Origin: Flavobacterium sp. MDT1-60
Lineage (GTDB): Bacteria; Bacteroidota; Bacteroidia; Flavobacteriales; Flavobacteriaceae
Length of the DNA stretch: 64,000 nt
Assembly (NCBI RefSeq): GCF_014844035.1
Contig: NZ_CP062159.1
Span: 186,001-250,000 of the forward strand
Direction of reading: 5' to 3'
Each line of letters starts with the position of its first letter. Positions within the stretch are counted from its first letter, which is position 1. Of this stretch, positions 2,600 to 61,781 are shown piece after piece. The notes below the pieces were generated by a model that worked only from the letters and a program-made list of their open reading frames with translations, was not told the origin of the DNA and made no database searches. Position numbers and translations under genes: made by a program.

Positions 2600-3154
2600 T
2601 TGACAAAAGAACGCATCATATTAGGTATTGACCCAGGAACCACAATCATGGGTTTTGGATTGATTAAAGTCACCAATAAAAAAATGGAGTTTTTGCAGTT
2701 GAACGAATTGCAATTGTCCAAATACGACAATCATTACCAAAAACTAAAAATCATTTTTGAGCGTACCATCGAATTAATCGAAACGCATCATCCTGACGAA
2801 ATTGCCATTGAAGCACCTTTCTTCGGAAAGAATGTTCAATCGATGTTAAAGCTTGGACGCGCACAAGGCGTTGCCATGGCCGCGGGACTTTCAAGAGATA
2901 TTCCGATTACTGAATACGAACCCAAAAAGATAAAAATGGCCATTACCGGAAACGGAAATGCCAGCAAAGAACAAGTCGCGAAAATGCTCCAACAGCTATT
3001 AGGTTTGAAAGAATTGCCTAAAAACCTGGATTCAACCGATGGTTTAGCGGCCGCAGTTTGTCATTTCTTTAATTCCGGAAAAATCGTAGCCGGAAAAAGT
3101 TATTCAGGTTGGGATGCTTTTGTGAAACAAAATGAAGACAAAGTGAGGAAATGA
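2600..3154 (+). CDS. ruvC: Crossover junction endodeoxyribonuclease RuvC
   Basis: Holliday-junction resolvase of 184 aa, which cuts four-way junctions with RuvAB during recombinational repair. The RNase H-like fold is recognisable from [12 protein letters not shown] (catalytic D11), IEAPFFGKN (E71) and the late DSTDG segment (D144/D147). Length is normal for the family. The start appears to be TTG at 2600 because the conserved first strand begins only six residues later and no closer ATG exists. The gene is divergent from the UPF0104/GT2 pair, with about 110 bp between start codons. Confidence 0.93.
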
Positions 3155-3280
3155 GAAAATGTGCCAATTAGAAAATTAGATAATTCTTGTATCGTACATT
3201 TTTTAATTTTCTAATTTATTAATTCTTTTTTGGCTAACAATCTCATTATCTAATTGTCGCATTATCTAATTATCTAATTA

Positions 3281-4414
3281 ATGAGTGGTATCTACATCCA
3301 TATTCCTTTTTGCAAGCAGGCTTGCCATTACTGCGACTTTCATTTTTCGACTTCGATAAAGAAGAAAGATGAGATGGTTTTGGCTTTGTCCAAGGAAATT
3401 ATCATGCGCAAAAATGAGTTTGAAAATGATGTAGTTGAAACTATTTATTTTGGTGGCGGAACTCCTTCCGTATTGACAAATGAGGAAATAAGCTTTCTAA
3501 TCTCAGAAGTTTATAAAAACTACAAAGTCTCCGAAAATCCGGAAATTACGCTTGAAGCCAATCCGGACGATTTATCTTCAGAACGAATTTTTGAATTATC
3601 AAAAAGCCAAATAAACCGTTTGAGCATTGGAATTCAGTCTTTTTATGAAGAAGATTTAAAGATGATGAATCGCGCTCATAATTCGGCGGAAGCCAAAAAA
3701 TGTTTAGAAGAAGCAACCAAATATTTCGATAATATCTCGCTTGATTTGATTTACGGAATTCCGGGATTGACCGATGAAATGTGGAAACGAAATATTGAAA
3801 CTGCTTTGAGTTTTGGCATTCCGCATATTTCGAGTTATGCCTTGACTGTTGAACCAAAAACGGCTTTGAGAAAATTAATCGATACCGGAAAAATTGCTGA
3901 ACCACAAGACGAAGTGGCTTCAAATCATTTTATGATTTTGGTCGATACACTTCAAAAAAATGGTTTTATTCATTATGAATTATCGAATTTTGGGAAAGAG
4001 AATTATTTTTCCAGAAATAATTCGGCTTATTGGCTTGGTAAAAAATATATCGGAATTGGCCCATCAGCCCACAGTTATGACGGCGAAAAAAGAGGCTGGA
4101 ATATTGCGAATAATTCACTTTACTTAAAATCTATTCAGGAAAATGTTTTACCGATAGAAACTGAGATTCTGTCAAAATCAGATCGTTATAATGAATATAT
4201 TATGACGGGATTAAGAACGATTTGGGGTGTTTCGTTAGAACGAATTGAAAAAGAATTTGGTTTGGAGTATTTAAATTATTTGAAAAAACAAAGTCAGAAA
4301 TTCTTAAATGATGATTTGCTTTCGATTGAAAATAATATTCTAAAACCAACTGCAAAAGGAAAATTCCTGACAGATGGAATTGCAAGTGATCTGTTTTACT
4401 TAAATTTGGAATGA
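3281..4414 (+). CDS. hemW: Radical SAM heme chaperone HemW
   Basis: Radical SAM protein of 377 aa, the HemW group formerly annotated as oxygen-independent coproporphyrinogen III oxidase. The cluster motif C11-x3-C15-x2-C18 lies in CKQACHYCDF, followed by GGGTPS, the ANPDD strand and the HemW C-terminal domain. HemW lacks CPO activity in studied species and delivers heme to proteins. The Cys pattern alone does not separate HemW from HemN, but length and the early cluster position favour HemW. About 125 bp of AT-rich repeats lie between ruvC and this gene. Confidence 0.92.
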   Translation: MSGIYIHIPFCKQACHYCDFHFSTSIKKKDEMVLALSKEIIMRKNEFENDVVETIYFGGGTPSVLTNEEISFLISEVYKNYKVSENPEITLEANPDDLSSERIFELSKSQINRLSIGIQSFYEEDLKMMNRAHNSAEAKKCLEEATKYFDNISLDLIYGIPGLTDEMWKRNIETALSFGIPHISSYALTVEPKTALRKLIDTGKIAEPQDEVASNHFMILVDTLQKNGFIHYELSNFGKENYFSRNNSAYWLGKKYIGIGPSAHSYDGEKRGWNIANNSLYLKSIQENVLPIETEILSKSDRYNEYIMTGLRTIWGVSLERIEKEFGLEYLNYLKKQSQKFLNDDLLSIENNILKPTAKGKFLTDGIASDLFYLNLE

Positions 4415-4418
4415 AAGC

Positions 4419-4460
4419 TTAACCGCAAGGTTCGCTAAGGGTTTACGCAAAGGGCGCAAG
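4419..4460. repeat. Left inverted repeat bracketing the GxxExxY gene
   Basis: A 42-nt segment starting TTAACCGCAAGG and containing CGCTAAGGGTTTACGCAA. Its inverse occurs at 4949-4991 with roughly 85% identity, so the GxxExxY gene sits between matched ends. The same TTAACCGCAAAG-type ends recur around 25512-25621 without a gene inside. Confidence 0.8.
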
Positions 4461-4498
4461 TTTTTTAAACCATAAGAATAATCTTATTTTTTTACATT

Positions 4499-4534
4499 TT
4501 AATTGTATTTTTACAAATCTTAAAATACAATTAA
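4499..4534. promoter_or_regulatory. Perfect 13-bp inverted repeat before the GxxExxY start
   Basis: TTAATTGTATTTT (4499-4511) and its exact inverse (4522-4534) are separated by 10 nt and end 8 bases before the ATG at 4543. There is no T-run after the right arm and it is AT-rich, so an operator or a leader hairpin controlling expression is more likely than a terminator. This is inference from symmetry alone. Confidence 0.5.
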
Positions 4535-4542
4535 ATTTACTT

Positions 4543-4920
4543 ATGTCAGAGAATGAATTATCAAGAATTGTTTTTGATTGTGCCTTAAAAGTTCATCAAA
4601 CTTTAGGACCCGGACTTTTAGAAAGCGCTTATGAAGAATGCCTTTTTTTTGAATTAAAGAAGACAGGTTTAAGAATTGAAAAACAAAAGCCATTACCATT
4701 AATTTACGAAGAAATAAAACTAGAAATTGGTTATCGATTAGATATCATAATCGAAAATAAATTAATTTTGGAAATAAAATCAGTCGATGCCTTAAATGAA
4801 ATTCATTTTGCTCAACTATTGACTTATTTAAAATTAACGGATTGCAAATTAGGTTTATTGCTAAATTTTAATGTCATTTTAATAAAAAATGGAATTAAGA
4901 GAGTTGTAAATAAACTATAG
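4543..4920 (+). CDS. GxxExxY family protein
   Basis: Small protein of 125 aa with the family signature G24-x2-E27-x2-Y30 in LGPGLLESAYEECL. The later segment RLDIIIENKLILEIKSVD looks like a PD-(D/E)xK nuclease core (D, then ExK), as proposed for the GxxExxY/PDDEXK_3 family. The biological role of this family is not established. The gene lies in about 570 bp bounded by 42-nt inverted repeats, and a perfect dyad precedes the start. No partner gene is present inside the repeats. This arrangement suggests a gene carried by, or captured in, a small repeat element. Confidence 0.9.
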   Translation: MSENELSRIVFDCALKVHQTLGPGLLESAYEECLFFELKKTGLRIEKQKPLPLIYEEIKLEIGYRLDIIIENKLILEIKSVDALNEIHFAQLLTYLKLTDCKLGLLLNFNVILIKNGIKRVVNKL

Positions 4921-4948
4921 ATTCTAAATTTAAAAAGCAAAAAATAAA

Positions 4949-4991
4949 CCTTGCGAACCTTGCGTAAACCCTTAGCGACCCTTGCGGTTAA
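4949..4991. repeat. Right inverted repeat bracketing the GxxExxY gene
   Basis: Inverse of 4419-4460, ending in CTTGCGGTTAA. It stops 6 bases before the ATG of the cyclase-family gene, so if the element inserted here it now supplies that gene's immediate upstream sequence. Confidence 0.8.
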
Positions 4992-4997
4992 ATAATC

Positions 4998-5774
4998 ATG
5001 CTAGCAAAAATCAACAACTTCGAAATCGACTTATCAAAACCCATTGATATTTCAATTCCGTTAACCAATACAGACGAAAATCCGATTGCGTGGTATATCG
5101 AAAAACCGGTTATCGAACCTGTAGTTTTTGGTGACTGGATTGGAAATGTTTCTGAAGGAAAATCTTCAACTAACTTCAATAATATTTTCTTTAATCCTCA
5201 TGGGCATGGAACGCATACGGAATGTTTCGGGCATATTACAAATGATTTTTACAGCATTAATCAGGCTCTAAAGCAGTTTTTCTTTTTTGCCAAATTGATT
5301 ACCGTTGAACCTGAAAAGATTGGAGAGGATTTAGTTATAGCCAAAGATCAAATTGAAAGAGCAATGATCACTTCGACTCCGCTAAATGTGACAACCGAAG
5401 CTTTAATTATCAGAACGCTTCCAAACCAAAAAGAAAAGAAATCAAGAAAATATTCCAATACAAATCCGCCTTATTTATCTGAAGATGCTGCGATTTTCAT
5501 CCGCGAAAGCGAAATTCAGCATTTATTGATCGATTTGCCAAGCGTTGACAAAGAGCATGACGAGGGAAAATTATTGGCTCATAAAGCATTTTGGAATGTC
5601 AAAGACACGCATCAGTTAAATGCCGACGCACGACTCAATGCAACAATTACTGAAATGATTTTTGTTCCCAACGAAATTCAGGATGGAGATTATGTTTTAA
5701 ACCTGCAAATCGCCTCTTTTGAAAACGATGCAAGTCCGAGTAAACCTATTTTATATTCTGTAGTAAATTATTGA
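4998..5774 (+). CDS. Cyclase / kynurenine-formamidase-like hydrolase
   Basis: Protein of 258 aa in the cyclase family (PF04199), metal-dependent hydrolases that include bacterial kynurenine formamidase. The diagnostic metal-binding segment HGHGTHTECFGH spans residues 68-79. A second family segment, DLPSVDKEHDEGKLLAHKAFW, lies near residue 185. No tryptophan-catabolism neighbours are present, so the substrate is unknown. The ATG at 4998 follows directly on the inverted repeat that closes the GxxExxY element. Confidence 0.82.
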   Translation: MLAKINNFEIDLSKPIDISIPLTNTDENPIAWYIEKPVIEPVVFGDWIGNVSEGKSSTNFNNIFFNPHGHGTHTECFGHITNDFYSINQALKQFFFFAKLITVEPEKIGEDLVIAKDQIERAMITSTPLNVTTEALIIRTLPNQKEKKSRKYSNTNPPYLSEDAAIFIRESEIQHLLIDLPSVDKEHDEGKLLAHKAFWNVKDTHQLNADARLNATITEMIFVPNEIQDGDYVLNLQIASFENDASPSKPILYSVVNY

Positions 5775-6933: not shown

Positions 6934-7338
6934 ATGAATCAAATTACTGTTTCGACCGATAAAAACAAACTTGATGTTCCCTTCATTCAAAACTTTTTAA
7001 AAGATATTTATTGGGCCGCCGGAAGAACTATTGAAGAAGTTCAGACGACCATTGATGCTTCGGTTTGTTTTGGAATTTACTTAGACGACAAACAAATTGG
7101 TTTCGCACGCGTTATTACAGATTATGTGGTTTTTGGATATGTAATGGATGTTTTTATTACAGAAGAACATCGTGGCAAAGGCTATTCGTCTATTTTAATC
7201 GAGAATATGATGAACGAACCAATTTTAAAAGACATTCAAATTTGGAGATTGGCTACAACTGATGCTCATTTTTTATATGAGAAATTTGGTTTTAAGGCTT
7301 TGGAACATCCTGAAAAAATGATGGAAAAGAAAATTTAA
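6934..7338 (+). CDS. GNAT family N-acetyltransferase
   Basis: Acetyltransferase of 134 aa. Motif A, which binds acetyl-CoA pyrophosphate, is visible as VFITEEHRGKGYSS around residue 80-93, and the C-terminal segment FLYEKFGF is the usual family ending. The acceptor substrate cannot be predicted. It starts 50 bp after the DUF4421 gene on the same strand, but the functions are not obviously related. Confidence 0.88.
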   Translation: MNQITVSTDKNKLDVPFIQNFLKDIYWAAGRTIEEVQTTIDASVCFGIYLDDKQIGFARVITDYVVFGYVMDVFITEEHRGKGYSSILIENMMNEPILKDIQIWRLATTDAHFLYEKFGFKALEHPEKMMEKKI

Positions 7339-7438
7339 CAACACAAATTTCACTAATTTACACGAAATTATTTTGCTTTGCACATAATTCGGATTGGTAA
7401 AAATTTGTGCAATTCGTGTTTAATTTATATTTAAGAAA

Positions 7439-7807
7439 ATGAATCTAGAAACGTATTATGAATATTGTCTGTCGAAAAAGGGTGTCAGTGAACATTTTCC
7501 TTTTGATGAAGACACTTTAGTTTTTAAAGTGGGCGGAAAAATGTTTGCTCTATCTTCCTTATCGCAATGGGAAAAGAACGAACCATCCGTCAATTTAAAA
7601 TGTGATCCTGAACGTGCCCAGGAATTGCGAGCCGAATATGATGAGATAAAACCAGGTTTCCATATGAGTAAAGTGCATTGGAATACTGTCACTTTGAACG
7701 GAAATTTATCGATCGCTTTTGTGAAAGAACTCATTGATCATTCGTATGAATTGGTTTTCAAAAGTTTGACAAAGAAAATTCAGAATGAAATTATCGACCC
7801 GAGGTAA
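7439..7807 (+). CDS. MmcQ/YjbR family protein
   Basis: Protein of 122 aa of the MmcQ/YjbR family, which has a CyaY-like fold and is often annotated as DNA-binding without strong proof. Typical features are the opening YYEYCLSKKGVSEHFPF, a central VNLKCDPERAQELR and the GFHMSKVHWNTVTL segment. Length is normal. It follows a short inverted-repeat element (about 7340-7425, ACACAAATTTCAC against GTGCAATTCGTGTTT) that separates it from the GNAT gene. Confidence 0.88.
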   Translation: MNLETYYEYCLSKKGVSEHFPFDEDTLVFKVGGKMFALSSLSQWEKNEPSVNLKCDPERAQELRAEYDEIKPGFHMSKVHWNTVTLNGNLSIAFVKELIDHSYELVFKSLTKKIQNEIIDPR

Positions 7808-7905: not shown

Positions 7906-8625
7906 ATGAAAGAACAATTTAAAAAATTTCTAAACGAAGAACAAGATCCAAAAGCGATTGAAAAAATCACCTCAAAACTCAATGATTTATTGATGAAAGG
8001 TGAAGAAGTTGGATATATCGCGGTTCAAAAAAAACCAGCAATTACTGTTTTTCCAGATAGCATTGTATTAACAAACAAAAGAATTATTATCTGCAAGCCT
8101 AAAAATTTAGGTCTTTCGATGGACTTTACAGATTACACCTGGGACGAAATTGTTGGGACTTTTGTAAAAGAAAATATTTTAGGTTCAGAGTTTTCTTTTT
8201 CTACCAAAACTGATATTCAGGTTTCAATAGATTACATTCCTAAAATTCAGGCAAGAAAAATCTATACGTATGCTAAAGAACAATTGGATATTTTAAAAAA
8301 TCCTGCAGCAACTTCAGCGCCAGTTACAGAAACTGCACAACTAATTGAAGACGAAACTGATTTTGAAGAAGATGAAATCGAAGAAGTTGAAGCAGAAGAA
8401 GTAACGAATTTTGCTGAAATTATGCCAGCAACAACGCCTTCTTACACAGAGACTTTTGAGCCAATTCAGCCAACGCAACCTTCAACAGGAGAACGCAAAT
8501 TAAGTGAATTATCTAAAGAAGAACTTTTTGATAAATTGCAGAATTATAAAAAACTTCTTGATAATGGATTGATCATGCAAGGTGAATATGATGCGTTCAA
8601 AAAAGAGATTTTAAGTTATATGTAA
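7906..8625 (+). CDS. PH-domain protein with C-terminal SHOCT domain
   Basis: Protein of 239 aa. Residues about 25-130 look like a bacterial PH domain of the YokE/YvbH type (VLTNKRIIICKPK, then a basic/aromatic strand and KIQARKIYTYAKEQLDIL). A highly acidic linker (about 140-165) and a Pro/Thr-rich stretch lead to a SHOCT domain at about 198-239 (LSKEELFDKLQNYKKLLDNG). No signal peptide is visible, so it is cytoplasmic or peripheral. Role unknown. It shares a bidirectional terminator with the convergent DUF4407 gene. Confidence 0.75.
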   Translation: MKEQFKKFLNEEQDPKAIEKITSKLNDLLMKGEEVGYIAVQKKPAITVFPDSIVLTNKRIIICKPKNLGLSMDFTDYTWDEIVGTFVKENILGSEFSFSTKTDIQVSIDYIPKIQARKIYTYAKEQLDILKNPAATSAPVTETAQLIEDETDFEEDEIEEVEAEEVTNFAEIMPATTPSYTETFEPIQPTQPSTGERKLSELSKEELFDKLQNYKKLLDNGLIMQGEYDAFKKEILSYM

Positions 8626-8669
8626 GTCTTAAAGTCGAAAGTCTTAAAGTTTACTTTGTCTAAAATAAA

Positions 8670-8703
8670 AAAGCCAGAAATAGAAAATTCTATTTCTGGC
8701 TTT
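8670..8703. terminator. Bidirectional terminator
   Basis: AAAGCCAGAAATAGAA (8670-8685) pairs perfectly with 8688-8703, with A and T runs outside. It lies between convergent genes. A wider, weaker inverted repeat surrounds it (AAGTCTTAAAGTCGAAAG at about 8625-8642 against 8741-8758). Confidence 0.85.
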
Positions 8704-8757
8704 ATCTTTTTAAATCTGTACTGCGGCTTTATGACTTTTGACTTTAAGACTTTCGAC

Positions 8758-9858
8758 TTATAAAGTAGCCTTCTGTTTTTCTACAAAACTATTCGATTGC
8801 AGTTCTAATAATTCTGTTGCATTTTTGCGTTGCAGATCATATAAACTTTTATCTTGTGCAATATCAGCATAAACTCTATCATGCATTTCGGCGCTTGTTT
8901 TCTTGAGCAATTCACGTTGATATTTGTTTTGTTCTAACGTCGCTTTCATAGCCGTTTCAGCTTCTTCCTGTTTGATGTCAAATTCACCTTTTGGTGCTAA
9001 TAATTTGGCAATAATAGGAGAAGTTTCAATCGCCAGAAACAGTAACATTATAAAAAACGATGGCATCCATGGCAATTTATTCAAAGCATTAATTCGGGCC
9101 ATTAAGCCATCAAACCCTTCAATAATGGGTTGCGTTTGCGAAACTTTTTTATCCAAATCGGCTTGTAATTGTTTGCCTGTTTTTTCCTTCTCAGCAATTT
9201 TTGCTTCGTTGATTGTTTTTAAATCAGCAAATTCTTTTAAAGAGGCGTCGTGTTTTTCTCGTTTCTCTTTATAAACTGGTCCTTTTCCTAACCTCTTAGT
9301 TCCGGCAGTTCCTTCCGCTTCGGTAATGTAAGTGGAATATAAAGCGTTTACTTCTTTTTCTTTTTTCAGAATATCTGCTTTTAAAGAAGCAATTTCAGCT
9401 TTGTTTTTATCTAAATCCGATTTGAAATAATTCCCAACTTGTTTTTTATTGGCCAATTCCATTTCGTTTTTTTCCTTCAATAAAACGGTATTGATTTCTT
9501 TTTCAAAAATTTTAATTTCCAATGGTTTCGAAATTACGATCGCAATAATAATCGCCAATATAATTCGGGGGGTCGCTTGCAGAAATTCATCCATAAAACG
9601 ATCTCTTTTTTTGATAGTCGAAACAATAAATCGGTCTAAATTGAAGATTAACAAACTCCAGACAAATCCAAAAATTAAGGCAGGATAAATAGAATCAAAA
9701 ACAGTAAAAAGTGCGTAGGCGCTGGCAAGGAAAGCCATAACTGCGGTAAAAAAAACGGTGGCTCCAATACCAACATATTTGGTTTGTTCGCCTTCTGAAC
9801 AGCCTTCAAGAAGATCTCTGTCGGCGCCAGAACAAAGGATAAAAAATTGTTTTAACAT
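8758..9858 (-). CDS. DUF4407 family membrane protein
   Basis: Protein of 366 aa. Hydrophobic segments at about 30-50, 55-75 and 92-110 are followed by a long charged helical region (about 115-250, Lys/Glu-rich coiled coil), then another membrane segment (about 262-282) and a helical tail. This layout and the N-terminal FILCSGADRDLLEGC match the DUF4407 family of Bacteroidetes and Actinobacteria. Function is unknown, and the coiled coil suggests oligomerisation. It is the only gene on its strand in this stretch, with about 230 bp of AT-rich DNA upstream. Confidence 0.85.
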   Translation of the reverse strand: MLKQFFILCSGADRDLLEGCSEGEQTKYVGIGATVFFTAVMAFLASAYALFTVFDSIYPALIFGFVWSLLIFNLDRFIVSTIKKRDRFMDEFLQATPRIILAIIIAIVISKPLEIKIFEKEINTVLLKEKNEMELANKKQVGNYFKSDLDKNKAEIASLKADILKKEKEVNALYSTYITEAEGTAGTKRLGKGPVYKEKREKHDASLKEFADLKTINEAKIAEKEKTGKQLQADLDKKVSQTQPIIEGFDGLMARINALNKLPWMPSFFIMLLFLAIETSPIIAKLLAPKGEFDIKQEEAETAMKATLEQNKYQRELLKKTSAEMHDRVYADIAQDKSLYDLQRKNATELLELQSNSFVEKQKATL

Positions 9859-22114: not shown

Positions 22115-22192
22115 ACAAATCTCCACAGGCTGAGCACGCACTGTTGTCGAGTTACTTGCGAAGATTTCTCGTTCCTCGAAATGACAAACTGT
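22113..22192. repeat. Partial copy of 93-bp palindromic element
   Basis: It shares the spacer CTGAGCACGCACTGTTG and the right arm TTCTCGTTCCTCG...ATGACAAA with the complete element at 23446-23538. The left arm is mostly lost. It ends just after the stop codon of the FRG gene and lies downstream of the 77-aa gene. Confidence 0.75.
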
Positions 22193-23445: not shown

Positions 23446-23538
23446 TTTGTCATTCCGAGGAACGAGGAATCCCCACACGCTGAGCACGCACTGTTGGCGA
23501 GTTTCTTGCGGGGATTCCTCGTTCCTCGGAATGACAAA
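23446..23538. repeat. Complete 93-bp palindromic element
   Basis: A 29-bp arm (TTTGTCATTCCGAGGAACGA...) at 23446-23474 and its exact inverse at 23510-23538 enclose a 35-nt spacer. Related partial copies lie at 22113-22192, about 37275-37318, about 37835-37950 and inside the 215-bp tandem repeat. It resembles a MITE without coding capacity. Confidence 0.85.
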
Positions 23539-23560
23539 CTTTGTGTTAATTGGAATTTGG

Positions 23561-24253: not shown

Positions 24254-24780
24254 TATAAATTTTGTTTTTAACGGTCGCAAGATAGGGCAATAAAGGGTTA
24301 TTTCACAGAGATTCGCAGAGGTTTTTCGCAGAGATTCGCGAAGATTTGTTATTAAATAATTGATTAACCATATAGTTTGTCATTTCAAGGAACGAGACTC
24401 GGGCGATAGTGAATGGCAAAGCAAATCTCCACGAGAAGCTCGACAAAGATTGGATTTTCGTTGCGGAGTATAAATTTTGTTTTTAACGGTCGCAAGATAG
24501 GGCAATAAAGGGTTATTTCACAGAGATTCGCAGAGGTTTTTCGCAGAGATTCGCGAAGATTTGTTATTAAATAAATTGATTAACCATATAGTTTATCATT
24601 TCAAGGAACGAGACTCGAGCGATAGTGAATGGCGAAGCAAATCTCCACGAGAAGCTCGACAAAGATTGGATTTTCGTTGCGGAGTATAATTTTTGTTTTT
24701 AACGGTCGCAAGATAGGGTAATAAAGGGTTATTTCACAGAGATTCACGGAGATTTGTTATTAAATAAATTGATTAACCAT
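24254..24780. repeat. 215-bp tandem repeat, 2.4 copies
   Basis: Units begin at TATAAATTTTG: 24254-24468, 24469-24684, and a truncated third unit from 24685. Units 1 and 2 differ by few bases. Each holds the HAD leader sequence, CACAGAGATTCGCAGAG motifs and a GTCATTTCAAGGAACGAG element related to the 93-bp palindrome. The third unit has an internal deletion. No gene lies in this stretch. Confidence 0.92.
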
Positions 24781-24841
24781 TGCAACCCTTGCGTAAATCT
24801 TAGCGCTCATTGCGGTTAAGTTCTAAATTCCTATAAAAAAC

Positions 24842-25269: not shown

Positions 25270-25343
25270 CGGTCTGGACGGGACTCGAACCCGCGACCCC
25301 ATGCGTGACAGGCATGTATTCTAACCAACTGAACTACCAAACC
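25270..25343 (-). tRNA. tRNA-Asp (anticodon GTC), copy 1
   Basis: The acceptor stem GGTTTGG pairs with CCAGACC (one G-T pair), with discriminator G. The anticodon stem CATGC/GCATG encloses loop CTGTCAC with anticodon GTC. The T-loop is GGTTCGAGTCC. No CCA is encoded. Confidence 0.97.
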
Positions 25344-25392: not shown

Positions 25393-25459
25393 GGGTTTTT
25401 ACGAATAAAAATTGAGAAAATTTTAATCCTCTGATTTCTAGATAAATTCCAATCCTCTA

Positions 25460-25475
25460 TCCCGAGGCTTCGGGA
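25460..25475. repeat. 16-bp palindrome, copy 2
   Basis: TCCCGAGGCTTCGGGA, flanked by AATTCC-type repeats as at 23561. Confidence 0.85.
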
Positions 25476-25511
25476 CCAAATTCCAATGTTGGAATGCAAA
25501 AAAACCGTTAT

Positions 25512-25621
25512 TTAACCGTAAAGAACGCAAGGTTAAAAGCGCAAAGGTTCGCAAAGCTATATATAAACTTTGCGAACCTTTGCGTATCCCGAGGCTTCGG
25601 GATTGCGCCCTTTGCGGTTAA
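25512..25621. repeat. Gene-less inverted-repeat element with nested palindrome
   Basis: It starts TTAACCGTAAAG and ends CCCTTTGCGGTTAA, with perfect internal arms GCAAAGGTTCGCAAAG (25541-25556) and inverse (25568-25583). The ends match those flanking the GxxExxY gene. The right arm is interrupted by the 16-bp palindrome at 25587-25602. The rest of the gap between the two tRNA-Asp genes contains no gene. Confidence 0.8.
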
Positions 25622-25753
25622 ATCAAAAGTGTTGTAAATCAAAAAAGCCATCCACAAAAGTGGAAAGCTTTTCATTGGTCTAACTACTAAACCAGCTACG
25701 AGTTACAAAGTCGTAGCAAACAACACAACTAATCTTAGATACCGTATTTGGGC

Positions 25754-25793: not shown

Positions 25794-25867
25794 CGGTCTG
25801 GACGGGACTCGAACCCGCGACCCCATGCGTGACAGGCATGTATTCTAACCAACTGAACTACCAAACC
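25794..25867 (-). tRNA. tRNA-Asp (anticodon GTC), copy 2
   Basis: Sequence identical over 74 nt to the tRNA at 25270-25343. It has its own promoter and a related terminator. Confidence 0.97.
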
Positions 25868-29453: not shown

Positions 29454-29930
29454 TTTTAAGAATATAAGATTCGTTAAAAATAAAAAAAGCATTCGGATTA
29501 AAAGAGGGTTTGCCACGAATTGCACGAATTTCCACTAATTTTATTTTAATGCTGCTTAAAAAAGTTTAGCCACAGATTAAAGGATTCTCACAGATTAAAA
29601 ATGTTTGCCATCACTCGACCGATAACGAACTGGCGAAACAAATCTGCATGCTAAATTTTTCACGCAGATTTTAAAAGATTTAAGCAGATGCACGCAGATT
29701 GCTATTTAATAGGGAAAGTTTAGGAAGATTTAAAAAAATTTAGATAAATACTTTTAAATAAATCTGCGCTGATCTGCAAAAATCTGCAGAATCTGCGTGA
29801 AACAAAATCATTTTAATCTGTGTTAATCTGTGGCAAAAAAAATCCAATTTTCAAGCCAGTATAAATTCGTGAAAATTCGCGCAATTCGTGGCAAACTAAT
29901 ATAATTCGCGGCAAAAAAATAAATCCAAAT
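29454..29930. repeat. Three nested inverted-repeat elements
   Basis: No gene is present. Outer pair: GCCACGAATTGC (29512-29523) and inverse (29881-29892). Middle pair: GCCACAGATTAA (29569-29580) and inverse (29823-29834). Inner pair: TTTCACGCAGATT (29658-29670) and inverse (29790-29802). Each arm pair is exact and lies strictly inside the previous one, as expected if small elements inserted into each other. Confidence 0.85.
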
Positions 29931-37274: not shown

Positions 37275-37318
37275 ATCGAGCTACTTGCGAAGATTTCTCG
37301 TGCCTCGAAATGACAAAA
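37275..37318. repeat. Partial palindromic element
   Basis: CGAGCTACTTGCGAAGATTT followed by CTCGTGCCTCGAAATGACAAAA. This is the same right half as the element at 22137-22190, again just downstream of a 77-aa paralogue. Confidence 0.7.
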
Positions 37319-38359: not shown

Positions 38360-38380
38360 ATATATAGCAACCGGTTTTTT

Positions 38381-38695
38381 CACCATATAAGTGATATAAG
38401 TTCATTTAATAAACTTTGTGTTTATTTTTTTTACCTAATATGATATAAGGACATATAAAGTTGCTCATAGGAGCAATTCTCACGCAAAGTCGCGAAGCCG
38501 CAAAGTTTATTTTCTTTGCGGCTTCGTGACTTTGGTGAAATCTATGTTCAACACTTATGTGAGCTTCTATCCTTTACAAAATTAGGCGCAAAGTTCAACA
38601 CCCCAATTAAAATGAACTTATATCACTTATATGGTGAAAAAAAATTAAGCGCAAAGTAAACACCCCAATTAAATGAACTTACATCACTTATATGG
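38381..38695. repeat. Cluster of repeats: inverted 20-mers around a CGCAAAG hairpin
   Basis: A direct copy of the 20-bp repeat (38381-38400) faces two inverted copies (38617-38636, 38678-38695). Between them CGCAAAGTCGCGAAGCCGCAAAG (about 38485-38507) pairs with CTTTGCGGCTTCGTGACTTTG (about 38515-38535). The 375-bp gap holds no gene. Confidence 0.8.
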
Positions 38696-39465: not shown

Positions 39466-39504
39466 AGATTTTAAGTTTTATGTTGAATTGCTTTGTCATT
39501 TAAT

Positions 39505-39678
39505 CTCGCAAAGGCGCAGAGTCGCAAAGTTTTATTTATAGCTACAGATTAAAAAGATTATTTCACGCAGATTCTGCAGATTTAAGCAGATTTAATTTAG
39601 AAATGATCTGCGTAAATCTGCTTAAATCTTTTTAAATCTGCGTGAAACAAAAACTTTGCGCCTCTGCGACTTTGCGAG
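39505..39678. repeat. Nested inverted repeats
   Basis: Outer arms: CTCGCAAAGGCGCAGAGTCG... (39505-39529) and 39654-39678. Inner arms: TTTCACGCAGATT (39561-39573) and exact inverse (39635-39647). The inner element is the same family as the inner pair at 29658-29802. No gene is present in 39407-39793. Confidence 0.85.
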
Positions 39679-39719
39679 AGATATTATGCGCAAAGCCTAA
39701 AAAAACCTTTGAACCTTGC

Positions 39720-41939: not shown

Positions 41940-42343
41940 GTTTGCCACGACCCGACCAAAGGGAACAGGCGAAGCAATTTCACTAATTTCCACTAATTTT
42001 TTTCAATCCTACCGATTAAATTAATTTGTGGTAATTTGTGTAATTTGTGGTTAAAAAAAAGATCCACAATGTAAAATTTTGTGGCAAAAAATTTTAAACC
42101 ACAATCACTACACGACGAAACTTTAGATCCCAAATCAAAAGCAATAGCAGAACCGTATTACTGGGAAAAAATATTGAAAAAGGTTTACCACGACCCGACC
42201 AAAGGGAACAGGCGAAGCAATTACACTAATTTTTACTAATTTTTTTTCAATCATTCCGATTAAATTAATTTGTGGAAATTCGTGAAATTCGTGGCAAAAA
42301 AAAGATCTGAAATATGAAAATTCGTGGCAAAAAATTTTAAACC
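41940..42343. repeat. Duplicated intergenic unit after amt
   Basis: Both units contain CCACGACCCGACCAAAGGGA followed by ACAGGCGAAGCAAT, then CACTAATTT and a GTGGCAAAAAATTTTAAACC end. The CCCGACCAAAGGGAACAGG segment interrupts the common GCCACGAATTTCAC repeat, so it looks inserted. Apart from the amt relic, the gap holds no gene. Confidence 0.75.
42102..42170 (+). pseudogene. Relic 3' end of a second amt gene
   Basis: Reads SLHDETLDPKSKAIAEPYY, matching the C-terminus of the intact Amt (SQHDETLDPKSKPITEPHYG). Many codon differences are synonymous (GAT/GAC, ACA/ACT, CTT/TTA, CCA/CCC), so it was once coding. No upstream part remains. The following intergenic repeat is also duplicated, giving about 240-bp units 41870-42100 and 42102-42343. 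Confidence 0.8.
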
Positions 42344-43761: not shown

Positions 43762-43769
43762 AGATTAGT

Positions 43770-43890
43770 TTGCCACGAATTTCACTAATCTCCACGAATT
43801 AATTTTATTTTTACATTCATATAAATAAGTGCTAAAAAAAAGTTTCTCCAGATTTAACGCAATACAATAATTCGTGAAATTCGTGGCAAA
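43770..43890. repeat. GCCACGAATTTCAC inverted repeat
   Basis: GCCACGAATTTCAC and GTGAAATTCGTGGC face each other across about 90 bp. The right arm provides spurious upstream start codons for the alkyltransferase-like gene. Confidence 0.75.
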
Positions 43891-44237: not shown

Positions 44238-44252
44238 TTCATTTTAGAGCTT

Positions 44253-44337
44253 CCTGCAAGGTTTTCAAAACCTTGTAGGTTTACATTCCTTTTCATCATC
44301 AAATAACATACCTACAAGGTTTTGAAAACCTTGCAGG
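44253..44337. repeat. Perfect 28-bp inverted repeat
   Basis: Arms 44253-44280 and 44310-44337 are exact inverses (CCTGCAAGGTTTTCAAAACC...), with a 29-nt spacer. Each arm contains its own smaller palindrome AAGGTTTTCAAAACCTT. It lies between convergent genes and may act as a terminator, but the structure is a REP-like element. Confidence 0.85.
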
Positions 44338-44349
44338 AAAGAAAAAAAC

Positions 44350-45675
44350 CTAAATTAAACAAATAACAAAGCTCGTTTTATCTTCATCAGTTTGATAGCT
44401 TAAGTATCCTCCATGGGCTTCGATGATGTTTTTTGAGAGTGTTAAACCAATTCCGGCACCGTCTTTTCTGGTGGTGAAAAAAGGCAGAAAAACTTTGTCC
44501 CGAATCTCAGAATCGATACCTTTTCCGTTATCCGAAATCGTGATGAAAAAACGATTGTTTTCGGTATAACTGGATAGAAACATTTTCTTTTCCTGTTTTT
44601 CTTTTAAAGCATAAATACTATTCGTAATCAAATTGATAATCACCTGCTCCATTTGATTTTTATCAATCAAAATTGAACGCGAACTATTTATTTCATTGAT
44701 CAATTCAATATTCTCCGCTTTTAAAATCGGACTCATGATTCGGAGGCAATCATCGAAAAGTGCGTTTATTGGCGTCATTACTTTTGTTGGAGTTGGAAGC
44801 ATGGCCAACTTTCTGTAATTCTCCACAAAAACCTGAATATGGTCACTCCTATTTATAATGGTAGAAATACTGCTTTTGATGTCGTCAAAATCATCTTCTT
44901 CCAATTTTTCCTGATCGACAATCTGGAGTAAATTCTGCGAAAGCGCACGAATTGGAGTTAAGGAATTCATTAATTCATGGGAGATAATTTTCATCAAATT
45001 GATCCAGGCTTCTTTTTCCTTTTTCTCAATCACACGCTGAATACTGTCTAATAAAATAATGAAATATTCTTTGTTATACGTTTTGGTAAGCGATGTTTGG
45101 AGCATAAAAGTCTGCAGATCCTGCTCTTCAATTTTAATCGAAATCGCCGATTTTAATTCGGCAAAATCAGACTTTTCGATTTCATTACAAAGTGATGGCA
45201 AATAGTTTTTTAAGTAACTCCAATGACTCACTTTTGGCACTTTGAATAAATTGGAGAAACAATCATTCATTAAAAAGATATTCCACTCGTCATTTTCTTT
45301 TTCTAAAATTAAAGCGCCGGTATCGATACTATTTAAGATAGATTGATATACTAATTCCTTTGAGGTTTGCTCCTGCTGCTGGATTTTTAAAGCTTCGTAT
45401 AAAAGATATAAACTTTTGAAATTGTCTTTTTTATTCTCTTCCGGAAAATTGGTCGAAAAGTCTTTTTGAAGCATAGAGAGCAAAGTTCTGTCATAAAACA
45501 GCAATTGGTTTTTGACATAAAAATACATTTCAAATAACATTACAACCGCAAAAAGCCCGACCAAAATGGCGTTGTAATAAAACATTTTATAAATTAGAAA
45601 AACGCAAAAGAAAAAGAGCGCCATAACAAACAAGACTCTCACAAATAAGGCGTTATAAAACTTCCAATTTTTCAT
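44350..45675 (-). CDS. Sensor histidine kinase
   Basis: Kinase of 441 aa with two N-terminal membrane helices, a PAS-like middle (about 100-200) and the catalytic core. The H-box is IISHELMNSLTPIRA, N-box NLITNSIYALKEK, G1 ISDNGKGID, G2 GAGIGLTLSKNIIEAHGG. It lies 133 bp downstream of the sigma-54 response regulator gene on the same strand and is its probable partner. The stimulus is unknown, but the divergent efflux operon points to an envelope or toxic-compound signal. The small periplasmic loop suggests sensing at or in the membrane. Confidence 0.92.
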   Translation of the reverse strand: MKNWKFYNALFVRVLFVMALFFFCVFLIYKMFYYNAILVGLFAVVMLFEMYFYVKNQLLFYDRTLLSMLQKDFSTNFPEENKKDNFKSLYLLYEALKIQQQEQTSKELVYQSILNSIDTGALILEKENDEWNIFLMNDCFSNLFKVPKVSHWSYLKNYLPSLCNEIEKSDFAELKSAISIKIEEQDLQTFMLQTSLTKTYNKEYFIILLDSIQRVIEKKEKEAWINLMKIISHELMNSLTPIRALSQNLLQIVDQEKLEEDDFDDIKSSISTIINRSDHIQVFVENYRKLAMLPTPTKVMTPINALFDDCLRIMSPILKAENIELINEINSSRSILIDKNQMEQVIINLITNSIYALKEKQEKKMFLSSYTENNRFFITISDNGKGIDSEIRDKVFLPFFTTRKDGAGIGLTLSKNIIEAHGGYLSYQTDEDKTSFVICLI

Positions 45676-45808
45676 TTATTTTTTCTTAATAATGTTTAAA
45701 ATTTAACCGCAAAGGTCGCTACACAAAGCTTTGCGAACTTAATAATCTCAATTACAAACACAACGAAAAAAATACTTTGCGTGCTTTGCGGTAAAATCAA
45801 CACCCTGA

Positions 45809-47167
45809 CTAAGTATTCTTCAAGTCGTATTTCTCAATTCTTCTGTACAAAGCGGCTCTTGACAAACCTAATTCCTCAGCAGTTTTGCTGATGTTTCCGT
45901 GGTGTTTGAATAAGGCTTTTTCGATGGCTGTTTTTTCCATTTCAGATAACGGATTTTCGTCGTTTTGCTGAATATCTTCAAAATCCAGAATATCTAAGTC
46001 GTGAACCGTAATTGTATTATTGTCGGCTAAAATCAAAGCGCGCTCGATCTTGTTTTCCATTTCGCGGACATTTCCTTTCCATGGATATTTTTCTAAATAC
46101 GGACCTGCATTTTCTTCAAATTGCCATCCCGAAGCTTCGGGACCATGATTGTATTTTTCAGCAATCTGATCGAGGATAAAATTGGCCATCGGAACAATAT
46201 CATCTTTTCGTTCTCTCAAGGATGGCAAATGAATTTCCATTGTATTGATTCGGTACAGCAAATCTTCACGGAAGGTTTTGCTTTTTACCTCAGCCTTAAT
46301 ATCGCTGTTTGTAGCCGAAATAATTCGGACATTTAAAGGTCTTGGCTTGCTTTCACCCAAACGTGTAACGGTTTTTGTTTGTAAAACGTGTAATAATTTG
46401 GCTTGCAAATGAAGCGGAATATTCCCAATTTCATCGAGAAAAATAGTGCCATTTGAAGCCATTTCGAATCTTCCGGGAGTATCAGTTTTGGCATCGGTAA
46501 AAGCACCTTTTGCGTAGCCAAAAAGTTCACTTTCAAATAAATTATCACTCAAAGAACCCAAATCAACATGCACAAAAGGCTGTTTTTTTCGTTCAGAATG
46601 TTGATGGATAAACTCCGCAAAAACATATTTTCCGGTTCCGTTTTCGCCTAAAATCAAAACGTTGGCATCAGTTTTCGCTACTCTTTCAGCAATAGAATAG
46701 GCTTGTTTTATTTTTTGGGAAGTTCCGACGAAATATCTTTTTTCGGTTTTTTCGATTACCGGTTTTTTGCTATTTTTTCTGCTTTCGGCGACAGCCTTAT
46801 CAATCGTTTCCAGTAATTTTTCGTTGTGCCAGGGTTTCAAAACATAATCAAAAGCACCTATTTTTATTCCTTCAACAGCTGTTTCAATTTTACCAAACGC
46901 TGTCATTAAAATCACAATGGTTTGAGGCGAAAGTGTTTTAATTTCTTTCAGCCAATGAATTCCTTCGCGTCCGTCTTCAAAACCAATTCGGTAATTCATG
47001 TCCAATAAAACCACATTTATCTCATTTTCACTTAAAAGAGAAATGATTTTTTTGGGATTGTTTGTCGTAAAAATAGTTTCAAAATGCTTTTTGAGAATCA
47101 TTTTTGCCGAAAAAAGAATTTCTTCCTGATCGTCAACAATTAATATTTGGGCTAGTTTTTTTCGCAT
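45809..47167 (-). CDS. Sigma-54-dependent response regulator (NtrC family)
   Basis: Protein of 452 aa with three domains. The receiver (1-120) has D11/D12, phosphoacceptor D56 and K111. The AAA+ domain (about 145-385) has Walker A GENGTGK (174-180), the sigma-54 contact loop GAFTDA (221-226; GAFTGA in most others) and Walker B TIFLDEIG. A Fis-type HTH ends the protein (ISKTAEELGLSRAALYRRI). Residues 342-347 (GPEASG) are encoded by a 16-bp palindrome also seen in four intergenic places, suggesting an in-frame insertion. The divergent efflux operon has a sigma-54 promoter and is the probable target. Confidence 0.94.
   Translation of the reverse strand: MRKKLAQILIVDDQEEILFSAKMILKKHFETIFTTNNPKKIISLLSENEINVVLLDMNYRIGFEDGREGIHWLKEIKTLSPQTIVILMTAFGKIETAVEGIKIGAFDYVLKPWHNEKLLETIDKAVAESRKNSKKPVIEKTEKRYFVGTSQKIKQAYSIAERVAKTDANVLILGENGTGKYVFAEFIHQHSERKKQPFVHVDLGSLSDNLFESELFGYAKGAFTDAKTDTPGRFEMASNGTIFLDEIGNIPLHLQAKLLHVLQTKTVTRLGESKPRPLNVRIISATNSDIKAEVKSKTFREDLLYRINTMEIHLPSLRERKDDIVPMANFILDQIAEKYNHGPEASGWQFEENAGPYLEKYPWKGNVREMENKIERALILADNNTITVHDLDILDFEDIQQNDENPLSEMEKTAIEKALFKHHGNISKTAEELGLSRAALYRRIEKYDLKNT
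46127..46142. repeat. 16-bp palindrome inside a coding region, copy 5
   Basis: TCCCGAAGCTTCGGGA is perfectly palindromic and lies in codons 342-347 of the response regulator, between the AAA+ core and its C-terminal helical part. The reading frame is kept. Confidence 0.85.
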
Positions 47168-52308: not shown

Positions 52309-53442
52309 ATGAAATTAGATAGAAAAGAAATTCTTAAAGCTCTGGAAACAATTACCATAGCCGGAGAAGGAAAAAATATGGTTGAAAGTGGTGCTGTTGC
52401 CAATGTTATTACTTTTGGTGATGAAGTTGTCGTAGATTTACTATTACACACACCGGCAATGCACATTAAAAAAAGAGCTGAAGATGATATCAAAAAAACA
52501 ATTCATAAATTGGTATCTCCTGAAGCTAAAGTTAAAGTAAACATCAAGGTAGAAGCGAAGGAAAATCCTAATGAAATAAAAGGAAAAGCCATTCCGGGAA
52601 TCAAAAATATTATTGCCGTTGCTTCTGGAAAAGGTGGTGTGGGAAAATCAACTGTTACCGCAAATCTTGCCGTAACACTTGCCAAAATGGGTTTTTCAGT
52701 TGGAGTTTTAGACGCTGATATTTACGGGCCTTCGATGCCAATTATGTTTGACGTTGAAAATGAAAAACCAATTTCTATTACCGTTGACGGAAAATCAAAA
52801 ATGAAACCAATTGAAAGTTTTGAAGTCAAAATACTTTCTATCGGATTCTTTACAGCACCAAGTCAGGCAGTAATCTGGAGAGGTCCTATGGCTGCAAAAG
52901 CGCTAAATCAAATGATCTTTGATGCAGATTGGGGAGAATTGGATTTCATGCTAATCGATTTACCTCCCGGAACCGGAGACATTCACCTTTCGATTATGCA
53001 ATCATTGCCAATTACCGGAGCTGTAGTTGTAAGTACACCTCAGGCCGTGGCTCTTGCCGATGCTAAAAAAGGAGTTTCGATGTTTATGCAGGACAATATT
53101 AATGTTCCTGTTTTGGGAATTATTGAAAATATGGCGTACTTTACACCAGAAGAATTACCTGACAATAAATACTATATCTTTGGACAGGAAGGAGCTAAAA
53201 ATCTTGCAGAAGATTTAGATGTTCCATTCTTAGGAGAAGTGCCAATTGTACAGTCAATACGTGAAGCAGGAGATTACGGTCGCCCGGCAGCTTTGCAGAC
53301 AGCCTCTGTAATTGAAACTATTTTTGAAGAAATTACCAGAAATGTGGTACAGGAAGTAGTAAACAGAAACGATAGTTTACCTGCAACAGAAGCCATTAAA
53401 ATTACAACAATGGCTGGATGTTCAGCGGTTAAAAAGAATTAG
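52309..53442 (+). CDS. apbC: Mrp/NBP35 family Fe-S carrier ATPase
   Basis: P-loop ATPase of 377 aa from the ATG at 52309 (MKLDRKEIL). An N-terminal DUF59/MIP18-like domain (about 1-85) precedes the deviant Walker A ASGKGGVGKST, the Mrp signature LDADIYGPSMPIMF and LIDLPPGTGDIHL. Members bind and transfer [4Fe-4S] clusters. Clustering with a NifU-type scaffold and a ferredoxin supports a role in Fe-S biogenesis. An upstream frame of 14 codons is rejected as it lacks family similarity. Confidence 0.94.
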   Translation: MKLDRKEILKALETITIAGEGKNMVESGAVANVITFGDEVVVDLLLHTPAMHIKKRAEDDIKKTIHKLVSPEAKVKVNIKVEAKENPNEIKGKAIPGIKNIIAVASGKGGVGKSTVTANLAVTLAKMGFSVGVLDADIYGPSMPIMFDVENEKPISITVDGKSKMKPIESFEVKILSIGFFTAPSQAVIWRGPMAAKALNQMIFDADWGELDFMLIDLPPGTGDIHLSIMQSLPITGAVVVSTPQAVALADAKKGVSMFMQDNINVPVLGIIENMAYFTPEELPDNKYYIFGQEGAKNLAEDLDVPFLGEVPIVQSIREAGDYGRPAALQTASVIETIFEEITRNVVQEVVNRNDSLPATEAIKITTMAGCSAVKKN

Positions 53443-53451
53443 ATAATTGAG

Positions 53452-53522
53452 ATAATGAGAAAATTAGAAAATGTGCCAATTAGAAAATTATCTAATTATC
53501 TCATTTTCTAATTGGCACATTG
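53452..53522. repeat. Inverted repeat between apbC and the NifU-like gene
   Basis: GAAAATGTGCCAATTAGAAA and its inverse (TTTCTAATTGGCACATT) flank a short centre. A related GTGCCAATTAGAAAATTAG copy occurs after ruvC at about 3160, so it belongs to a dispersed family. Confidence 0.75.
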
Positions 53523-53542
53523 TTTAATTGACAAATAAAATT

Positions 53543-54542: not shown

Positions 54543-54860
54543 ATGGATGTATTAATAAAGATTAAGGATCGAGAAGGAGTTATACACGAGTTACAGGCTC
54601 CAACTGATATGGCAATGAATATAATGGAGTTATGCAAGGCATACGAACTTCCTGTTGAAGGAACCTGTGGCGGAATGGCCATGTGTGCTTCTTGTCAGTG
54701 TTATGTTCTAAATGATGTTGCATTACCAGAAATGGGCGATGATGAAGAAGCCATGCTTTCGGAGGCATTTTATGTTAAATCTAATAGTCGTTTAGGCTGT
54801 CAGATTCCGATTACTACAGAATTAGAAGGACTGGAATTAGAGCTGGCTCCTGAATATTAA
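54543..54860 (+). CDS. [2Fe-2S] ferredoxin
   Basis: Ferredoxin of 105 aa of the adrenodoxin/ISC type: the cluster ligands lie in GTCGGMAMCASCQCY (C-x5-C-x2-C) plus the distal C in RLGCQIPI. It donates electrons in Fe-S assembly or to oxygenases. The nearby Mrp and NifU genes favour an Fe-S biogenesis role. Confidence 0.92.
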   Translation: MDVLIKIKDREGVIHELQAPTDMAMNIMELCKAYELPVEGTCGGMAMCASCQCYVLNDVALPEMGDDEEAMLSEAFYVKSNSRLGCQIPITTELEGLELELAPEY

Positions 54861-54881
54861 AATAATAAATTACAATATTGT

Positions 54882-54931
54882 AAAATTCCAAATTCCAATA
54901 GAACATTCATACTATTGGAATTTGGAATTTT
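54882..54931. repeat. Perfect 20-bp inverted repeat
   Basis: AAAATTCCAAATTCCAATAG (54882-54901) and exact inverse (54912-54931), 10-nt spacer. A similar AATTCCAA-type sequence flanks two of the 16-bp palindromes. It may double as a terminator of the ferredoxin gene. Confidence 0.85.
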
Positions 54932-54967
54932 TGTTTGGAACTATCTGACTCCGAAATATTAAAATAC

Positions 54968-61587: not shown

Positions 61588-61738
61588 GTTTGCCACGAAT
61601 TTCACAAATTTTCACTAATATTTAGCTTAAATAATTAGCCACAGATTAAGAGATTTTCATAGATTTAATTCTTATTCACTTCTAAAATGAGGTAAAGATT
61701 TTAAATATAATTTGTGAAAATTTGTGTAATGCGTGGCA
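61588..61738. repeat. GCCACGAATTTCAC-type inverted repeat
   Basis: GCCACGAATTTCACAAATTT near 61592 and its inverse ending ATGCGTGGC near 61737. A half copy of the GCCACAGATTAA element lies inside. It separates the divergent murF-alr gene from the PAP2-like gene. Confidence 0.75.
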
Positions 61739-61781
61739 AAAAACATTATTATATTTGTTGAATACCACAAAATATAGCATT

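Follow-up and report, generated by a model that had tools for sequence, protein, structure and literature searches.

Why does a small nuclease-like gene sit in the loop of a large palindrome, in a genome where related palindromes without any gene lie scattered between other genes? The question is raised by a 573-bp element at positions 4419–4991 of a 64,000-nt stretch of Flavobacterium sp. MDT1-60 (contig NZ_CP062159.1, positions 186,001–250,000 of the forward strand; hereafter the window, whose numbering is used unless stated otherwise), which carries a gene of the GxxExxY family between inverted arms. Our analysis indicates that this unit is probably the gene-bearing (‘autonomous’) copy of a set of dispersed intergenic palindromes, whose gene-less members would be its non-autonomous copies, with the GxxExxY protein driving their spread or maintenance. 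Palindromes with and without the nuclease-like gene, encountered in many bacterial groups and in one archaeal draft genome, suggest an undescribed repeat-spreading element.

The element and its protein

The element, delineated on the plus strand by its inverted arms, its open reading frame (ORF) and a TIGR04256 match, occupies the gap between a hemW-type gene (3281–4414) and a cyclase gene (4998–5774), and its termini read TTAACC/GGTTAA. Its left arm (4419–4464, plus strand; family F1 below) and its right arm (4946–4991, minus strand), an imperfect reverse complement of the left, measure 46 nt each, are 89% complementary and stand 481 nt apart, with the 125-amino-acid GxxExxY frame (4543–4920, plus strand) inside them. 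A preliminary description of the locus had placed the gene between matched inverted ends of 42 nt; the enclosure and the inverted arms were found as described, and the arm length is corrected to 46 nt with mismatches.

The encoded protein scored 146.2 bits against TIGR04256 (GxxExxY; cut-off 35) and 142.8 bits against PF13366 (PDDEXK_3; cut-off 22), its sole Pfam match at E ≤ 0.001. The AlphaFold2 model (predicted local distance difference test, pLDDT, 96.7) displays both the fold and the D / ExK residues by which the PD-(D/E)xK superfamily is recognised, and its closest structural match is the DNA nuclease Cas4, in a Foldseek list whose E values do not fall below 1e-3 and in which tRNA-splicing endonucleases appear from rank 9 downward. 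PADLOC returned a weak Cas4b match (E 0.002), a sequence search of the PDB found no relative of the protein (best E 0.18), and the gene is under purifying selection with its nuclease residues invariant. Fold and profiles together predict a Cas4-like PD-(D/E)xK nuclease. In PMC8934634, a gene beside a reverse transcriptase (RT) is labelled GxxExxY by one pipeline and cas4 by another tool. The Cas4-like fold and the PADLOC match could also speak for defence or self-recognition, in which the nuclease would take palindromes as marks or bait; both genes adjoining GxxExxY at this locus, the hemW-type gene and the cyclase, argue against it, and we give this idea very little credence.

Elsewhere, a GxxExxY domain and a RecQ helicase share one open frame in three species of one genus (L365 2289–4937, L366 301–2949, L367 2712–5360; L denotes loci and G genomes of our sets), and a tandem pair of GxxExxY matches lies at G088:C1:1593381–1594196 (L368).

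Six genes and their gene-less palindromes

The genome, a single contig of 5.56 Mb, holds six GxxExxY genes, and all six are enclosed by inverted-repeat brackets whose arm sequence is different for each: F1 TTAACCGCAAGGTTCGC, F2 AATCTCGCAAAGACGCAGAGTCGCAAAG, F3 TTTGCCACGAATTTCACTAATTCACAC, F4 TTTCACGCAGATTTTGCAGATTTAAGCAGATT, F5 AACACAGATTTCACAAATTTGCAC and F6 TTTTTCACCATATAAGCCATATAAG, F3 and F5 being alike and having many window matches in common. BLAST of the arms located relatives of all six families in the window outside the GxxExxY gene, gene-less and in intergenic gaps, and several of the same places were recovered by an inverted-repeat scan run without the arm sequences. The pairing of gene-bearing and gene-less forms proposed in the preliminary description holds for all six genes of this genome and for loci from many phyla. 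For 19 window palindromes drawn from the pattern, BLAST and inverted-repeat scans, some of them belonging to other families, 2.6% of the length overlaps ORFs of at least 90 amino acids (all 70 used), and such ORFs cover 82% of the window.

The counterpart first singled out, a gene-less F1-type palindrome of 110 bp at 25512–25621, is real and agrees with the element in ends and word grammar, although the two do not share a long arm of identical sequence: a BLAST comparison of it with the arms of the gene aligned 14 nt only (E 0.24). Detected by inverted-repeat and pattern scans, it possesses outer arms of 21 nt (25510–25530 / 25603–25623, 86% complementary) and inner arms of 17 nt (CGCAAAGGTTCGCAAAG / CTTTGCGAACCTTTGCG, 100% complementary). 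The 12-nt end alone is weak, with 15 window matches at up to two mismatches against a shuffle mean of 9.3, and 5 of 100 shuffles reaching 15. The inner arm exceeds chance, with four window matches at up to three mismatches against a shuffle mean of 0.18 and no shuffle reaching four; two of the four are exact, both within this palindrome. The whole genome contains 78 occurrences of TTWAACCGCAAR, compared with 21 of the reversed pattern. Two minus-strand tRNA genes of equal Rfam score (25270–25343 and 25794–25867) flank the palindrome, and a short CCCGAGGCTTCGGG palindrome lies within its right arm. The arms of larger palindromes contain very short ones (CCCGAGGCTTCGGG, CCCGATAGCTATCGGG or a variant of these) at about 25585–25603 and 25459–25476 in the window, and also at L329, L330 and L341; they are possibly a separate mobile repeat.

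Another gene-less F1 palindrome, found by pattern scan, lies between two ORFs at 45703–45795 and has similar stretches in its own genome at C1:5185520–5185613 (88%) and 5185405–5185498 (85%), while a single F1-type arm, or half element, was matched by BLAST on the minus strand at 24780–24819. Nesting was evident among the copies supported by both BLAST and the inverted-repeat scan: F4 palindromes lie between the arms of an F2 palindrome (39504–39679, arms like L002; inner copy 39558–39650) and of an F3 palindrome (29508–29896, arms like L003; inner copy 29658–29805, arms like L004), and an F2-like palindrome (38485–38534) lies between the arms of an F6 palindrome (38375–38642, arms like L006). 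The same two methods gave F3 palindromes at 61589–61740 and 43769–43890; BLAST gave one more of F3 (42219–42298), one of F3/F5 type (41976–42050) and one of F5/F3 type (7340–7420) in the gap between ORFs 6934–7338 and 7439–7807. The window also holds a palindrome of TTCCTGCAAGGTTTTCAAAACCTTGTAGGT with perfect 30-nt arms (44251–44339), with no partner gene among the genes examined.

These positions bear on an RNA-level reading, in which the arms would pair in the transcript, RNase III would process them and the protein would bind the stem, as with the intervening sequences (IVSs) of 23S rRNA. The plan is indeed alike, since an IVS carries an ORF between terminal inverted repeats with a 28-bp stem (PMC4990558), and the IVS protein family, a four-helix bundle, has similar brackets in our data. 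Against this, the gene-less copies of the window lie between genes, no window palindrome matched an Rfam family at gathering score, and the closest structural match of the protein is a DNA nuclease, even with tRNA-splicing endonucleases further down the list; we regard the RNA-level reading as improbable. Among the Rfam matches in the window were Flavo-1 RNA (RF01705, 288–368) and c4-2 RNA (RF02944, 37635–37712).

Bracketing across the family

The GxxExxY gene was present in 49 of 61 sampled Flavobacterium genomes and in 59 of the 118 genomes of a phylum sample. Genomes of the genus carry as many as nine copies, of which some are interrupted by internal stops. Bracketing was scored as the best local match between the 220 nt upstream of a gene and the reverse complement of the 220 nt downstream, a score of at least 20 being called strong. 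The loci, a non-random sample, were the best-scoring matches together with 40 chosen from high in the genus list, and 173 of them were parsed (99 of 103 in a first set and 74 of the 80 named in a second). Strong brackets were found at 109 of the 173, from many phyla. The first set yielded them at 6/6 loci of the own genome, 50/66 of the genus and 13/27 of other Bacteroidota, against 17/297 cross-locus pairs and 8/204 neighbour ORFs; the second at 18/40 loci of Bacteroidota with Ignavibacteria and Chlorobi (controls: cross-locus 17/200, neighbours 4/210) and at 22/34 of other phyla (18/170 and 5/205), the groups of this set being assigned by record title, with a check for Hatepunaea. Scores of at least 20 were reached in Planctomycetota, Chloroflexota, Cyanobacteria, Proteobacteria, Verrucomicrobia, a Treponema metagenome-assembled genome (MAG) and a Methanosarcinales MAG; many of these strongly bracketed cases come from MAGs, in which stray contigs are possible.

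A non-redundant set of 86 genes was left when proteins sharing at least 70% identity were greedily thinned out; 49 of these genes scored at least 20 and 60 at least 18, the corresponding figures for neighbour ORFs being 9/299 and 17/299. A majority of unbracketed genes, which the preliminary description had named as an outcome that would tell against it, did not arise in this non-random sample. Its expectation that GxxExxY genes in general carry TTAACCGCAAAG ends proved too narrow, because arm sequences differ from gene to gene while following a common grammar. A single end sequence for all GxxExxY genes was rejected.

The controls also bear on whether the palindromes are transcription terminators or mRNA-stabilising hairpins under selection, with the gene between two of them by coincidence. 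Many palindrome copies do start no more than some tens of nucleotides from where an ORF stops, and three GIY-YIG genes (L179, L181, L182) seem, by eye, to be placed between plain terminators. Neighbour ORFs are nevertheless far less often bracketed than GxxExxY genes, left arms rarely match right arms of other loci (17/297 and 35/370) and the word families are genome-specific. A terminator-only reading is rejected on the neighbour-ORF control, and we hold terminators or hairpins with a gene between them by chance to be very improbable.

Word grammar, repeat load and co-variation

The common grammar of the arms is a word of about 7 nt, often CRCRRAG, repeated at a pitch of 9–12 nt, close to one turn of the helix, and inverted on the far side. 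Autocorrelation of one arm from each of the 109 strongly bracketed loci gave z = 9.7, 6.8, 1.9 and 4.0 at lags 9, 10, 11 and 12, and 3.9 and 2.5 at lags 21 and 22. Word orientation at the 173 loci followed the inversion, with 347 sense and 119 anti upstream and 80 sense and 331 anti downstream. In other phyla the usual arm form is ACC followed by CRCRRAG words, for instance AACCACAGAGGACACAGAGGGCACAGAGA beside the archaeal gene; seven gene-less copies of the archaeal genome, chosen for words standing in facing pairs, span 56–77 nt, six of them with three words on either side of a loop, the second set inverted, and one with three and two.

The number of such word pairs in a genome goes, exceptions aside, with the presence of the gene (load counts cover one word class only, and the kinship of genomes is ignored). 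Among the 61 genus genomes, CRCARAGN{2,6}CRCARAG occurred 2150 times in the 49 with the gene (control 53) and 21 times in the 12 without (control 5), a difference with p=1.4e-6, or 2.6e-4 among genomes of 2.9–4.0 Mb (8 without the gene vs 24 with it). Phylum-wide, CRCRRAGN{2,4}CRCRRAG occurred 1203 times in 40 genomes with the gene against a control of 143, and 254 times in 40 without it against 286 (p=1.1e-6 for the excess over control per Mb); 33 of the former and, by hand count, 15 of the latter stand above control. This sample comprised 80 of the 115 genomes G061–G175, the gene-less status of 20 being inferred from the tally of gene carriers, and one gene-less member (G115) belongs to the own genus. 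The count in other phyla, which took in gene-bearing genomes only, gave 4373 against a control of 546, with 32 of 37 above control.

The arms themselves carry a graded relation to the window: the mean excess over shuffles of arm matches outside the gene element was 13.2 for the own six loci, 5.1 for the genus (n=50), 2.3 for the phylum (n=31) and 0.2 for other phyla (n=22). Protein similarity and arm similarity were correlated (Mantel r=0.385, against at most 0.144 in 500 permutations), and the correlation was r=0.21 once close pairs were left out (at most 0.11 in 300 permutations). A role of GxxExxY in moving or maintaining the repeats is consistent, as judged from sequence comparison, with this load, with this co-variation and with the copies at shared sites.

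Shared sites

The hemW–cyclase gap was compared by eye in the best 30 of 55 Flavobacterium genomes with the cyclase. GxxExxY with F1 arms was present in seven (two not parsed as intact), gene-less CACAAAG-like palindromes in 11, CGCTGAT/ATCCGCGTT-type repeats in seven, and other states in three; the remaining two (L111, L116) have a small gene, labelled GIY-YIG-like by eye, between CTGAACTAGTTTCAGGAT and GATGCTGAAATAAATTCAGCAT repeats. Conserved synteny of the gene without its repeats, which would have spoken against the pairing, was not seen at this one site, where the gene in the hemW–cyclase position always has arms.

For the gap at 45675–45809, 49 loci from 46 of 128 matching genomes (three taken twice) were likewise read by eye: five hold F1 palindromes, four hold none, and most of the remainder carry palindromes of other families, an F4-type copy being nested in another palindrome at several of them. 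Alignment of the left flank was partial at two of the sites without a palindrome, whose emptiness is judged from spacing. Different palindrome families occupy one orthologous site. A further family, CCAGCTTTAGCTGG ... GGCTTTAGCC, was noticed at the same site (L321, L338, L353, L359, L361).

Similar brackets at other genes

Eleven matches to GIY-YIG and 11 to the four-helix-bundle family TIGR02436 were found in Flavobacterium sp. MDT1-60, two of the latter being fragments at a single position. Seven of the nine four-helix-bundle loci scored in this genome reach 20, as do 18 of 29 in the genus (cross-locus 11/145, neighbours 2/60). By BLAST, the arms of L166 match window positions 8625–8759, those of L170 match 3146–3284 and 53437–53536, and those of L173 match 54860–54940, and the words of these palindromes (AATTAGAT, AAAGTC, AAATTCC) match the brackets of the three loci; the arms of L167 and L169 gave weak matches to the window or none. 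Three of ten scored GIY-YIG genes reach 20, and one of them (L175, score 47) has a long bracket matched by TTTGTCATTCCGAGGAACGAGGAATC-type repeats at 23446–23552, 22144–22187 and 37276–37316, the other two resembling plain terminators. BLAST located the L175 arms at 23447–23552 and elsewhere in the window. The bracket plan is not confined to nucleases.

The four-helix-bundle genes L186–L189, L191, L194, L199, L206 and L208 seem to occupy one site in several species, having alike flanks. In PMC5524665, a four-helix-bundle gene of Flavobacterium columnare, between guanylate kinase and a nucleotidyltransferase gene, stands in a table of phage regions.

A proposed homing-like route and the points that weigh on it

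The form of mobility we prefer, by analogy, is a homing-like route. The GxxExxY nuclease would recognise the phased words when the arms lie close, as a hairpin or cruciform, and would cut at the palindrome; repair of the break could then place a copy, either complete or lacking the gene, at intergenic sites or in other palindromes. Copies that carry the gene may escape cutting, since their arms would be held apart by it, much as a homing endonuclease gene protects its own site. Copying by cutting and repair would leave loop-nested copies and no fixed target-site duplication.

Several observations weigh against a protein that spreads the repeats. Over 212 palindromes, the target-site duplication test gave only a weak 6-nt signal (0.349 vs a background of 0.296), and none was visible by eye at 34 ends; these ends read ACC/GGT, the script being restricted to that type, and a first-base excess on either side was discounted because it is set by where the palindrome is made to end. 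The score is under 16 for 19 genes of the non-redundant 86, which means that the bracket is either not universal or decayed. The gene-less genomes of the genus jointly exceed their control, and in the phylum sample individual gene-less genomes do so too (G165 13 vs 0, G103 22 vs 5, G074 31 vs 12, G097 10 vs 1); conversely, 5 of the 37 gene-bearing genomes of other phyla are not above control. Genus load follows gene number (Spearman 0.65) and also genome size (0.48). Four-helix-bundle proteins are not known as nucleases, so their similar brackets imply that a bracket need not mean cutting, and PD-(D/E)xK nucleases are generally not strand-transfer enzymes, so that movement would need repair or a partner. 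Unlike many mobile genes, GxxExxY is rare on plasmids: a tblastn search with this one protein (E ≤ 1e-5) met relatives in 6 of 72,556 plasmid records and in none of 50,697 phages.

Some of these points suit a different arrangement, in which the palindromes are spread by a repetitive extragenic palindromic (REP)-associated tyrosine transposase (RAYT), another transposase or replication slippage, and GxxExxY is a passenger or a host nuclease that trims, resolves or regulates palindromes. In favour of it, related species keep the gene at the same site, purifying selection acts on it, a RecQ fusion occurs in three species, relatives are scarce on plasmids and were not met in phages, and other protein families have similar brackets. 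Repeated bracketing by the genome's own repeat family, and the association of load with gene presence, are not expected of a passenger, and we deem this arrangement unlikely.

Should the GxxExxY protein spread or maintain the palindromes, a widespread protein family of unknown role would gain a function, much of the intergenic repeat content of Bacteroidota and other phyla would have a likely maker, and a nuclease class would join the short list of enzymes driving dispersed palindromes. The question of the spreader is testable, with one small protein, a defined target of roughly 80 bp of DNA, and pairs of species that naturally differ in having the gene. A broader proposal, which we put forward tentatively and at somewhat less than even chances, is a large unrecognised class of prokaryotic mobile repeats, helically phased-word palindromes spread by a small loop-borne Cas4-like nuclease, with a four-helix-bundle or GIY-YIG protein replacing the nuclease in parallel systems. 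Many unexplained intergenic palindromes of Bacteroidota, and CACAGAG-type repeats of other phyla, would then be gene-less copies, and 23S rRNA IVSs elements of this kind landed in a ribosomal hairpin loop.

Comparison with known systems

To our knowledge, neither the enzyme class nor phased-word palindromes are among the known drivers of dispersed repeats. In the open-access papers searched, subscription papers lying outside our coverage, titles and the openings of abstracts showed no connection between dispersed palindromes and GxxExxY or four-helix-bundle genes, and a term search of the main text of a review of miniature inverted-repeat transposable elements (MITEs; PMC10969869) met none of GxxExxY, Bacteroid, Flavobacter, endonuclease or RAYT.

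With MITEs the system shares short gene-less inverted-repeat elements beside gene-bearing copies (PMC3733652), whereas the GxxExxY element is without a known transposase gene or a clear target-site duplication, and each of its arms is internally repeated. Like homing endonuclease genes, its nuclease gene would, by analogy, interrupt its own recognition site; unlike them, it lies outside any intron or intein. Cas4 and RecB-type nucleases differ from the single-domain protein of 125 amino acids, which has no CRISPR genes adjoining it at this locus. The IVSs of 23S rRNA, described in PMC4990558 as selfish with their mobility debated, likewise place an ORF in the loop of terminal inverted repeats; they reside inside 23S rRNA and encode a four-helix bundle (S23), whereas the GxxExxY element lies between protein genes, with no rRNA at gathering scores in the Rfam scan of the window, encodes a predicted nuclease and has many gene-less copies.

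The closest likeness is to RAYT/REP systems (REPtrons), in which, as here, a gene lies between inverted copies of a dispersed intergenic palindrome. Several gene/repeat pairs in some genomes, and co-evolution of gene and repeat, are reported for RAYT/REP in PMC2817692 and PMC3733652, and both traits are seen for GxxExxY too. The differences lie in the enzyme, RAYT being an HUH/Y1 tyrosine transposase (Pfam01797) and GxxExxY having the PD-(D/E)xK fold of PF13366; in the absence, by eye, of a GT(A/G)G tag (GTAG/GTGG) at the ends of the GxxExxY element and at the 34 other ends; and in arms that are phased arrays of words of about 7 nt, spread over many phyla and one archaeal MAG. In organisation alone it varies the REPtron plan, and the best reading overall is that of a REPtron-like repeat system built around a nuclease unrelated to the RAYT transposases, rather than a member of the RAYT family.
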